Position numbers and translations under genes: made by a program | The notes under the pieces: model-generated | Database searches by the model: none | What the model was told of the DNA's origin: nothing | What the model saw: only the letters and a program-made list of their open reading frames with translations | In this document: positions 18,878 through 22,555 of the stretch, one piece after another | How positions within the stretch are numbered: position 1 is the first letter of the stretch | Layout of the letters: every line of letters begins with the position of its first letter | Assembly: GCA_002085155.1 (NCBI GenBank) | Contig: NASX01000023.1 | Span: forward strand, 11,116-73,069 | Reading direction: 5' to 3' | Source of the DNA: Sorangiineae bacterium NIC37A_2 | GTDB lineage: Bacteria; Myxococcota_A; Polyangia; Polyangiales; Polyangiaceae | Length of the DNA: 61,954 nucleotides

Positions 18878-19189
18878 ATGGCAAACGCAGTCATTCGCAC
18901 CGGCGGAAAACAGTACCGGGTCTCGCCCGGCGACGTTCTTCGCATTGAAAAATTGGATGGTTCCCCCGGAGATCGGGTGACGTTCGAAGAGGTCCTCTTC
19001 CTCGGCGGAGACAGCCCGAAGTTCGGCGCTCCGCTCGTGTCGGGTGCCAAGGTCGAAGGTGAGATCGTCGCACAAGGTCGCGGCGAGAAACTCGTCATCT
19101 TCAAGTTCAAGCGCCGGAAGAAGCACCGCCGCAAGAACGGTCATCGTCAATCCTTCACCGCAGTGAAGATCACGGAGGTCCTCGGCTAA
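18878..19189 (+). CDS. rplU: 50S ribosomal protein L21
   Basis: The 103-residue product matches L21 over its full length ([46 protein letters not shown]). It binds 23S rRNA domain V/II together with L20 in the large subunit. Its TAA stop (19187-19189) shares an A with the rpmA start codon, so the two are translationally coupled as in most bacteria. Unlike many genomes, obgE does not follow the pair. Confidence 0.97.
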
Positions 19190-19449
19190 TGGCACATAAA
19201 AAGGGCGGCGGCTCCACACGCAACGGTCGCGATTCAAATGCGCAACACCGCGGAGTGAAGGTCTTCGGAGGCCAGACCATCAGCGCAGGCGGCATCATCA
19301 TCCGCCAGGTTGGCCAGAGCGTTGACCCCGGCAACAATGTCGGTCGCGCCAAAGACTTCACTCTCTATTCGCTCATCGACGGCGTCGTGAAGTTCGAGTG
19401 GGCTTCGCGCACGAAGAAGAAGGTCTCGGTCTACCCGATCGAGGCTTGA
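19189..19449 (+). CDS. rpmA: 50S ribosomal protein L27
   Basis: The 86-residue product starts [16 protein letters not shown], so the flexible N-terminal tail that reaches the peptidyl-transferase centre is present from the first codon; there is no Firmicute-type cleaved extension. [19 protein letters not shown] is the conserved core. It is coupled to rplU by a TAATG overlap. A strong intrinsic terminator follows 24 bp later. Confidence 0.97.
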
Positions 19450-19619: not shown

Positions 19620-21611
19620 ATGTCCAGCCTCTCGAAAATCAGTGTCTTGCCCGCCGATCTGGCGAACCAGATCGCCGCGGGTGAGGTCGTCGAGAGACCA
19701 GCCAGCGTCGCCAAGGAGCTCCTCGAGAATGCCCTCGACGCCGGAGCATCGCGCATCGAGCTCAGCTTGACCGGTGGCGGCCTCAAGGAGCTCACGGTCA
19801 TCGACGACGGCTTCGGCATGAGCCCCGGGGACGCCCGGCTGGCCCTCCAGCGGCACGCCACGAGCAAGCTACGCGCCTTCACAGATCTCGACTCCCTCTG
19901 CTCATTCGGCTTCCGCGGGGAGGCGCTGCCGAGCATCGCCTCCGTCAGCCGCTTCGAGCTCACGACCCGCGAAGCGACCCGTGACGAGGCCACCGTCGTC
20001 ACAGTGCTCGGCGGCAAAGACCCGCAGCACAGGAGCGCAGGAGGCCCCGTAGGAACGAAGGTCAGCGTCCGAGACCTCTTCTTCAACGTTCCGGCCCGCC
20101 TGAAGTTCCTGCGCTCGACGAGCACCGAGAGCGGTCATGTGAGTGACGTGTTCGTGGCACTGGCGCTCGGTCGACCGGAGGTGACCTTCGTGCTGTCGCG
20201 AGATGGGCGCACCGTACGCAAGCTCCCCAAGGTAAAGACCCGGAGAGAGCGCGCCATTCAGGTCCTCGAACGAGACGACCTCAGGCACGTGCGCGGTGAG
20301 CGGGGCCCCCTCCACATCGAAGCCTTCCTCGCTGGGCCCGAGTCTGCGCGAAACGGCGCATCGGGACTCCGCTTCTTGGTCAATGGGCGCCCGGTGCGCG
20401 ATCGCGCCCTCGCCCAAGCTGTGGCCCAAACCTACGGCTCCACTCTCGAACGAGGGCGCTACCCGGTCGGCGTCGTCTTCCTCGACTTGCCGCCGCACCT
20501 CGTCGACATCAACGTCCACCCCCAGAAACTCGAAGTGCGCTTCGCAGAGGCCCGCGCCGTCTTCGACGCTCTCTTCCAGGTCCTCTCGAAGGAGCTCGGG
20601 TACGCGACCGAGGAGACCTTGACCAAGGCCAGCGCCCCGAACGTGCGCCCCTTTTCGCGGGACCGAGCGCCCTCTCCCCGCGCCGAAGCTCCGCTGAGTC
20701 CTCCCGAAGAGCGCCAGACGCTCCGCGTGCGCGCGAGTGTGGCCGAGGAGGTTCCGTCGATTCGTCCGGAGACCTTGCGCGCCTTCGAGCTCAAAGATTC
20801 GGCTCAGCCGGGACGCAGTCGTCTCCGTTTCATCGCTCAGCTCCGTCGCAGCTATCTCATCTGCGAAGGGCGCGAGGGACTCGTCATCCTCGATCAGGCG
20901 CGCCTGGCAGAACGTGTCCTCTGCTCAAGACTCTGGAATGATTTTCTCGAAGGGCGCACGCGGGCTCAGTCCCTGCTCTTCCCGATTCAAGTCGTCGTGC
21001 CCGAAGGGCTCGAGCACGTCCTCAGCCTCGCTGAACCCCTCACTCAGCTCGGCATCGAGGTGCGCGCAAAGAGCGATACCGTCGCCACCATTCACTCCGT
21101 CCCCGACGCCCTTTCGCACGCTCCGCCAGAGGCGGTCCTCGCCATCGTCAGCCAAACTCTCCGCGAGAGTGCTGACCTCTCTCCGCACGAGCGGCTCCGA
21201 AAGCTCACCGCATGCCTCGGCGATGCCTTCTGTCTGAAGCGGGGCCAGACCCTCGGCCCCGGCGAAGCCTCGAGTTTGCTCTCGAACTTCGACGAGCTCG
21301 GCGCCACGTTCGAAGGCCCTTCTCCGATCGTCCACCGCGTTTCCTTCGAGGAGCTCGACGGCGGCAGAGCGGAGCCCGTGCCCAGCTCCGAGCGCCCCGA
21401 AAGGAGCAGCGAACCCTCCGCTCCCGAAGCGTCCATCTTCACCCAAGAGCCCCAAGACTCGGGCGAAACTCAGCGCCCCACAAAAGCCAAACTCTCCGCG
21501 GAGGAGCCCGAGGCGCCGAGGCCCCGCGAGTCCGGTGAGCGACGCACCACGGACCAAGAACAGAGTGCTGTCCCCGCACCGGGTGCAAAACGTAGGAGCC
21601 GGGGAGGATGA
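19620..21611 (+). CDS. mutL: DNA mismatch repair protein MutL with degenerate endonuclease motifs
   Basis: The 663-residue protein has an intact GHKL ATPase: ELLENALDAGA (33-43), DDGFGM (62-67), GFRGEAL (97-103), and the transducer end VDINVHPQKLEVRF. MutL couples mismatch-bound MutS to strand incision and helicase loading. In the C-terminal half, the usual DQHA(x)2E(x)4E nuclease site reads DQARLAERVLCS (425-436): the His and last Glu are lost. The later Zn/metal motif (CPHGRP in many homologues) is replaced by FEGPSP. This MutL is therefore probably not an endonuclease. About 100 residues of charged low-complexity tail follow. The stop overlaps miaA (ATGA). Confidence 0.95.
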   Translation: MSSLSKISVLPADLANQIAAGEVVERPASVAKELLENALDAGASRIELSLTGGGLKELTVIDDGFGMSPGDARLALQRHATSKLRAFTDLDSLCSFGFRGEALPSIASVSRFELTTREATRDEATVVTVLGGKDPQHRSAGGPVGTKVSVRDLFFNVPARLKFLRSTSTESGHVSDVFVALALGRPEVTFVLSRDGRTVRKLPKVKTRRERAIQVLERDDLRHVRGERGPLHIEAFLAGPESARNGASGLRFLVNGRPVRDRALAQAVAQTYGSTLERGRYPVGVVFLDLPPHLVDINVHPQKLEVRFAEARAVFDALFQVLSKELGYATEETLTKASAPNVRPFSRDRAPSPRAEAPLSPPEERQTLRVRASVAEEVPSIRPETLRAFELKDSAQPGRSRLRFIAQLRRSYLICEGREGLVILDQARLAERVLCSRLWNDFLEGRTRAQSLLFPIQVVVPEGLEHVLSLAEPLTQLGIEVRAKSDTVATIHSVPDALSHAPPEAVLAIVSQTLRESADLSPHERLRKLTACLGDAFCLKRGQTLGPGEASSLLSNFDELGATFEGPSPIVHRVSFEELDGGRAEPVPSSERPERSSEPSAPEASIFTQEPQDSGETQRPTKAKLSAEEPEAPRPRESGERRTTDQEQSAVPAPGAKRRSRGG

Positions 21612-22555
21612 GCCTTCTGTCGGTCCTCGTCTTGGTCGGGCCGACCGCTTCGGGGAAGACAGATCTCGCCCTCAGTCTCGCCCCGCGCCTGAACGCCGAG
21701 ATCGTCAGCGTCGACAGCGTCCAGGTCTATCGCCATTTCGATGTCGGGTCCGGAAAGCCGACCCCCGAGGAGCTCGCCCGCGTCCCTCATCATCTCATCT
21801 CCAGCCAGGATCCGACCGATCCTCTTGAAGCGAGCCAATTCCAGGCACAAGCAGATCGAGTCATCTCCGACATCGCCGCTCGCGGCAAGCGGGTCATCCT
21901 GTGCGGAGGAACGTTCCTCTGGCACCGAGCGCTCCTCTACGGGCTCGCTGATGCCCCCGAGGCCCAGCCGGAGCTCCGCCGGGCCCACGCAGAACTCGTC
22001 ATGCGCGAAGGGAGAAGAGCGCTGCATGAGCGTCTCAGGGCGGTCGATCCTGAGAGCGCCGCGCGCCTTCATCCGAACGATTTCGTGCGCGTAAGCCGCG
22101 CCCTCGAGGTCTTCGAAGCGAGCGGCCAAAAGATGAGCGCCTTACAAGAGGCACACGGCTTCCGCTCCGAGCGCTACCGCCCTCTCTTCGTCGGAATCGA
22201 CTGGCCCCGGGAGGATTACGACGCGCGCCTGCTCCGGCGCACCCGCGGCCTCTTTGAGCGAGGATTCGTCGAAGAGGTGCGCTCGCTCCTCGAGCGGGGT
22301 TACGGCGAAACGCGCGCCATGAGCTCGGTCGGTTATCTTCAGGTGCGCGACGCTGTCCGCTCCGGAAATTTCGACCTCGAAGAGCTCATCACACTCGTCT
22401 ACCAAAAGACCCGCGTCTTCGCCCGCCGCCAGCGCACCTGGCTTCGCGACCGCGAAATCCATTGGCTGCCCCCGAGCGTCCTCGATCCTCGCGACGATTC
22501 CGCTTCTGCCGAGCTCACCCGCCTCCTCGAGAGCTGGGAAACTCACGCCGGCTAA
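21608..22555 (+). CDS. miaA: tRNA dimethylallyltransferase
   Basis: The 315-residue enzyme adds a dimethylallyl group to A37 of tRNAs that read codons starting with U. The P-loop GPTASGKT is at 11-18, followed by VSVDSVQVYRHFDVGSGKP with the base-recognising Asp/Gln region, LCGGTFLW, NDFVRVSRALEV and the C-terminal TRVFARRQRTWLRD. The ATG is inside the mutL stop and has GGGGAGG at good distance, so mutL and miaA form a coupled operon, an order seen in many bacteria. The next gene is convergent. Confidence 0.96.
   Translation: MSLLSVLVLVGPTASGKTDLALSLAPRLNAEIVSVDSVQVYRHFDVGSGKPTPEELARVPHHLISSQDPTDPLEASQFQAQADRVISDIAARGKRVILCGGTFLWHRALLYGLADAPEAQPELRRAHAELVMREGRRALHERLRAVDPESAARLHPNDFVRVSRALEVFEASGQKMSALQEAHGFRSERYRPLFVGIDWPREDYDARLLRRTRGLFERGFVEEVRSLLERGYGETRAMSSVGYLQVRDAVRSGNFDLEELITLVYQKTRVFARRQRTWLRDREIHWLPPSVLDPRDDSASAELTRLLESWETHAG

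Follow-up and report, generated by a model that had tools for sequence, protein, structure and literature searches.

The closest described counterparts of the repair locus analysed here are the Escherichia coli MutS–MutL–MutH–Dam pathway and the MutL endonucleases of the Bacillus subtilis and Pseudomonas aeruginosa type, which carry the motifs DQHAxxExxxxE and CPHGRP. In the passages concerned, published accounts place MutH and methyl-directed repair only in a subset of gammaproteobacteria (PMC8034640, PMC8235422, PMC8744996), one of them specifying an E. coli-related set for methyl-directed repair (PMC8235422) and another stating that organisms with a mutH homolog have a MutL without the endonuclease C-terminal domain (PMC8744996). 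A section of a 2025 review adds that many bacteria are devoid of MutH (PMC12733681). Among the matches listed from the openly licensed PMC literature we found no paper on MutH in Myxococcota, and a search of the same literature returned no description of a genome with both candidate nickases. At the level of gene content, our Myxococcota data disagree with the published restriction of MutH and with the statement on MutL.

The window, the whole 61,954-nucleotide stretch of DNA that we analysed (G000:C123:11116-73069), belongs to a 5.0 Mb draft genome of Myxococcota that is 98% complete with 3.12% estimated contamination. Its predicted repair system resembles that of E. coli in a motif-less MutL, the MutH catalytic residues, Dam, MutS1 and an ordinary GATC density, and differs in its phylum and in a loss of the MutL motifs that occurred within its own family. 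With the B. subtilis/P. aeruginosa type its MutL shares the C-terminal domain fold and a clamp-binding-like motif, but it is devoid of the metal ligands, whereas many members of its own family keep the motifs. Most likely this is the established E. coli mechanism, operating in a phylum where it was not expected, and we consider it highly probable that this member of the Myxococcota repairs mismatches in the E. coli manner, directed by methylation and dependent on MutH, with a non-nuclease MutL as matchmaker.

The mutL gene is a complete open reading frame of 663 codons (19620..21611, + strand, as for all window features located below) recognised by TIGR00585 (458 bits) and PF08676 (62.5 bits) and situated between rpmA (L27) and miaA. 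The latter (21608..22555) adjoins mutL in all five relatives compared (G309, G249, G115, G163 and G120), and the upstream rplU and rpmA pair (18878..19449) lies beside it in two of them (G249 and G115). Residues 6–329 match the E. coli MutL N-terminal domain (PDB 5akb, E 1.3e-74), delineating a GHKL ATPase domain (19620..20609) in which the alignment reveals retained ATPase motifs. The C-terminal dimerisation domain (20790..21362) is predicted to have kept its fold and lost its nuclease site: an AlphaFold2 model computed from 13 sequences (mean pLDDT 87.7) superimposes on the E. coli MutL C-terminal domain 1x9z with a TM-score of 0.73 and on those of Neisseria gonorrhoeae and B. subtilis with TM-scores of 0.65–0.72. 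By fold and sequence the protein thus combines the GHKL ATPase N-terminal domain and the dimerising-type C-terminal domain of the MutL family, and its nearest relatives come from records that bear the names Labilithrix, Polyangia, Polyangiaceae and Myxococcales, which places the window in Myxococcota. It also retains QSLLFP (20967..20984), a clamp-binding-like motif whose Q, L, L and P are invariant in 13 aligned rows; the putative clamp-binding motif of P. aeruginosa MutL is given as QPLLVP in the relevant passage (PMC8744996). The first-pass annotation of this DNA had raised the prospect of a second MutL, which did not materialise: no second MutL C-terminal domain was found in the window's genome, where MutL is single-copy. 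Past the C-terminal domain, a low-complexity charged tail of about 78 residues (21375-21611) starts where the 12 intact-motif relatives described below end.

Alignment with 12 relatives, picked for having intact MutL motifs, indicates that three metal motifs have been replaced. DQARLAERVLCS (20892..20927) stands in place of DQHAxxERxxxx, with DQHA changed to DQAR; GDA (21219..21227) substitutes for ACH, the third metal motif; and FEGPSP (21309..21326) occupies the position of CPHGRP, in a region two residues shorter. The first and last of these replacements had been read from the letters in the first-pass annotation and are borne out in the open reading frame, and its proposal of a nuclease-dead MutL gains a further lost motif (ACH) that it had not mentioned. 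The histidine of DQHA is an alanine, and the D, the Q and the first glutamate (DQHAxxE) are retained. The absence of the last glutamate of the canonical motif means little, since even the intact MutL proteins of the window's own family carry D, H or S at this position. In the alignment, the protein does not carry the set of DQHA(x)2E, ACH and CPHGRP ligands that marks the MutL endonuclease family, and it very probably has no nuclease activity. A frame error is unlikely because the frame is open and the C-terminal domain is predicted to fold as a MutL C-terminal domain. The nuclease site alone looks to have been lost, as the N-terminal domain alignment, the modeled C-terminal fold and QSLLFP are all kept.

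The alignment with close relatives that had been suggested as a check sets the window apart from G309, which is grouped in the same genus, as well as from the 12 chosen relatives. The G309 MutL, of which 258 residues are seen before a contig end cuts the gene, reads DQHAAAERVVFS and CPHGRP, with its motifs intact. Within the genus, G309 is a remote relative (GC 0.70; MiaA 57% and MutL C-terminal domain 37% identical to those of the window), and we infer that the motif loss in the window MutL postdates the split between the two.

Loss of three motifs at once, the low-complexity tail after the C-terminal domain and the intact protein of a congener could also be signs of a decaying MutL in a strain whose mismatch repair is breaking down or gone and in which MutH is a bystander. 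We regard this explanation as improbable: the mutL frame is open, its ATPase domain and predicted C-terminal fold are retained, MutS1, MutH and Dam are all kept, and motif-less MutL recurs in many families. It is less probable still that the protein continues to cut DNA through a rearranged metal site; the D, the Q and the first glutamate of the first motif do remain, but the DQHA histidine, the ACH cysteine and histidine and the CPHGRP ligands are all absent.

The reading that we favour, an E. coli-type system with a matchmaker MutL, is supported by the remainder of the genome. The first-pass annotation had pointed to a lineage without an obvious MutH in the window; the window indeed contains none, but the implied absence from the lineage does not hold, as the genome encodes a single 248-residue MutH (C55:94269-94565; PF02976, 4.5e-31, above cut-off), a Dam methyltransferase on contig C78 (TIGR00571, 6.7e-79, above cut-off) and MutS1 on contig C9 (846 bits). 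The MutH protein passes the NCBI MutH equivalog model NF003458 (261.7 bits versus a cut-off of 243), falls below the cut-off of a second MutH model, TIGR02248 (216.6 versus 229.9), matches PDB 1azo with an E-value of 9e-56 and shares 103 of 234 aligned positions (44%) with its E. coli counterpart, the catalytic D, E and K being retained. The positions of E. coli MutH D70, E77, K79, K48, G49 and R184 are identical in all 83 core Myxococcota MutH rows, and that of Y212 is kept in 82 of them, with a gap in the remaining one; some of these conserved positions are presumably the GATC contacts of MutH structures. Dam, with a putative GATC specificity, aligns with E. coli Dam across most of its length and keeps DPPY. 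The window contains GATC about as often as chance predicts (430 sites versus 430.6 expected, largest gap 965 bases). The genome accordingly holds the gene set of MutH-type methyl-directed mismatch repair: MutH with its D/E/K residues, Dam, MutS1 and a motif-less MutL. The earlier expectation that a different incision route would be needed is supported, and with MutH, Dam and MutS1 present and MutL single-copy, the simplest form of 'repair without MutL cutting' would be incision by MutH as in E. coli.

MutH, Dam and MutL reside on three separate contigs of the draft assembly. The mutH gene lies divergently beside uvrA both in the window's genome and in G309 (UvrA 72% identical), the GC content of the MutH stretch equals 0.637 versus 0.636 for the window, and the word-usage correlations of the MutH and Dam stretches with the window (0.78 and 0.74, respectively) are the highest among the stretches compared. 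MutH and MutL are found on one contig in at least seven relatives, with intact MutL motifs in G177, G355 and G150 and lost motifs in G012, G022, G029 and G057; three of these seven are assemblies of 1–2 contigs, G177 and G150 being single-contig. Contamination is an unlikely source of the MutH contig. The least probable alternative, that the MutH-like protein belongs with Sau3AI-type restriction enzymes or comes from a contaminant contig and that something else makes the incision, draws on a weak match of the MutH domain to PDB Sau3AI and on the draft state of the assembly, and it is opposed by a score far below the Sau3AI model cut-off (46 bits versus the 300 required), by a length of 248 residues versus 509 in the Sau3AI chain, about twice as long, by the same uvrA neighbour in G309 and by the shared MutH–MutL contig in seven relatives.

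The favoured E. coli-type reading draws on the set of genes present, the lost MutL motifs, the residues conserved in MutH and Dam, the distribution described below and the intact G309 motifs found beside MutH. MutS would detect the mismatch and then load MutL, which, like E. coli MutL, would act as a matchmaker without nuclease activity and would activate MutH; MutH would in turn nick at Dam-marked GATC sites, in the new strand that is not yet methylated. In this lineage, MutH and Dam would have been present while MutL was still able to cut, and the redundant MutL site would have been lost in the window's genome after the split from G309.

Across Myxococcota, PF02976 matches 128 of 377 genomes, including 93 of the 236 better ones. 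MutH is present in 59 of the 77 genomes with a weak MutL C-terminal domain and in 62 of the 271 with a strong one; weak denotes an E-value over 1e-24, a cut chosen for this analysis and an imperfect one, as G054 is weak yet has intact motifs and G172 is strong yet motif-less. The other 29 of the 377 genomes have no MutL_C match, and 7 of the 20 of these among the matches listed carry MutH. We also classified 137 Myxococcota MutL proteins, the window's included, of which 83 keep the three ligands used and 54 do not, so that the window's state is the less common one; MutH accompanies 44 of the intact proteins (absent from 39) and 46 of the non-intact ones (absent from 8). Intact motifs therefore occur in 44 of the 90 classified MutH-bearing genomes, and MutH presence alone does not predict motif loss. 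The 137 proteins were chosen to favour weak C-terminal domains and MutH-bearing genomes, so the 377-genome count is the fairer of the two. Three truncated or broken MutL proteins (G289, G016 and G077) were left out of this classification, in which G032 and G319 (DAHA..E, SIHGRP) rank as intact, whereas they rank as partial in the clade count below; G117 is partial in both.

Six of the eight non-intact, MutH-negative exceptions belong to family f13, and the other two are G374 (90% complete) and G260 (73%), whose families include MutH-bearing relatives. Among loci read individually, the L011 and L013 genomes combine MutH with a motif-less or altered MutL, and the L016 genome pairs a motif-less MutL with a marginal match to the Myxococcota MutH profile (8.6e-5) that falls below the Pfam cut-off. 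Counter to the pattern, no MutH match accompanies the altered MutL of L014, L018 and L028 (DQHV, with NPHGRP or GPHGRP). In one 99% complete Myxococcota genome (G080), MutH and MutS1 are present and MutL is reduced to a trace match (E 3.7e-4), reflecting either a missing MutL or an assembly gap.

On a MutL N-terminal domain tree, built without four short rows (G309 among them), the motif state requires at least 14 changes, and the window's genome is a lone motif-lost tip beside intact relatives. The tree contains 21 clades in which the motifs are all lost or partial, 19 of which include MutH. Fisher tests of the MutH–MutL association ignore kinship, and a tree-aware independent-pairs sign test of MutH against MutL motif state was not significant (median p 0.25); correlated evolution of MutH and MutL motif loss is for this reason suggested but not proven. 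Dam is above cut-off in 38 of 40 MutH-bearing and 20 of 40 MutH-negative genomes of a chosen set and is thus the more widespread gene. We infer that Dam came first, followed by MutH and then by the loss of the MutL nuclease.

The MutH tree covers 87 of the 128 MutH-bearing genomes (83 core and 4 divergent sequences); G126 (no match) and G048 and G091 (short rows) were left out. Sequences cluster by family, with 25 changes for 24 groups where the minimum is 23. The window's own family, f1, by itself requires 4 changes, and the partner of the window's MutH in the tree is not the G309 protein but, in a weak pairing (94/57), that of G022 from family f3. This imperfect clustering by family suggests that MutH descent has been mostly vertical within families. 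In this tree, for which the bootstrap did not settle, the E. coli, Klebsiella, Proteus and Aeromonas proteins fall among those of Myxococcota. Neither forcing the core Myxococcota MutH into one clade (p-AU 0.177) nor forcing together all five gammaproteobacterial sequences used as the reference (p-AU 0.348) was rejected, and the tree leaves standing both a gammaproteobacterial and a myxococcotal first appearance of MutH. A class-wide set around G377, considered as a source of gammaproteobacterial MutH, was dropped as it evidently contained no E. coli relatives: 2 of its 198 genomes matched, through Sau3AI-like frames of about 470 residues with two MutH stretches.

Related MutH and MutL proteins of the same phylum occur together with the MutL motifs intact in G177, Labilithrix sp. 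ACE_MYX7 and Myxococcales bacterium 68-20. Unlike the window's genome, these genomes possess both candidate nickases; the single-contig G177 also encodes Dam. Myxococcota constitute a second large lineage with methyl-directed repair genes, one that includes both-nickase genomes as well as genomes in which the MutL nuclease has been lost. As the phylum holds both states, the switch from MutL to MutH cutting is directly testable by comparison and genetics, and both-nickase genomes together with repeated nuclease loss make an evolutionary case of clear interest. A broader reading, which we advance tentatively and with slightly more doubt than confidence, is that methyl-directed repair is no preserve of gammaproteobacteria but is widespread in Myxococcota, where it would be mostly family-inherited over an older Dam; that both-nickase genomes would be living intermediates from which the MutL nuclease was lost many times; that this pool could even be the source of the system in gammaproteobacteria; and that family f13, having lost MutH, Dam and the MutL nuclease, would have to start repair with an unrecognised nuclease.

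Family f13 comprises 11 genomes of the same class, all with MutS1 and all with a weak MutL C-terminal domain. None of the six f13 MutL sequences read has a nuclease motif, Pfam detects no MutH in the 11 genomes, the Myxococcota MutH profile yields three faint matches in them (best E 0.003), and Dam is absent from all nine genomes tested. One of five f13 mutL neighbourhoods was scanned with Pfam; it contains accA, miaA, an FHA-GGDEF protein, a rhomboid protein and two proteins without a Pfam match, and no nuclease was recognised. L357 (G364:C6:130500-150000) is an example of an f13 locus. In five Bacteroidota-type loci (L054, L069, L071, L075 and L076), which form a further group devoid of the canonical ligands, MutL reads DQQ[AS]AHER with APNGR-like letters at the CPHGRP region, and their genomes have no MutH above cut-off. 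L056 (Deltaproteobacteria MAG-89) and L080 (Parachlamydiales) similarly have no recognisable MutL nuclease motifs and no MutH above cut-off.

A few of the PF02976 matches are of a divergent MutH type; those read include family f35 and G075. These MutH-like proteins (L297, L301 and L306 in f35; L303 in G075) carry the motif [DN]FG[DS]WELK and accompany a motif-less MutL in G037, G057 and G107 and an intact one in G075. In G057, the divergent MutH-like gene lies about 10 kb from mutL.
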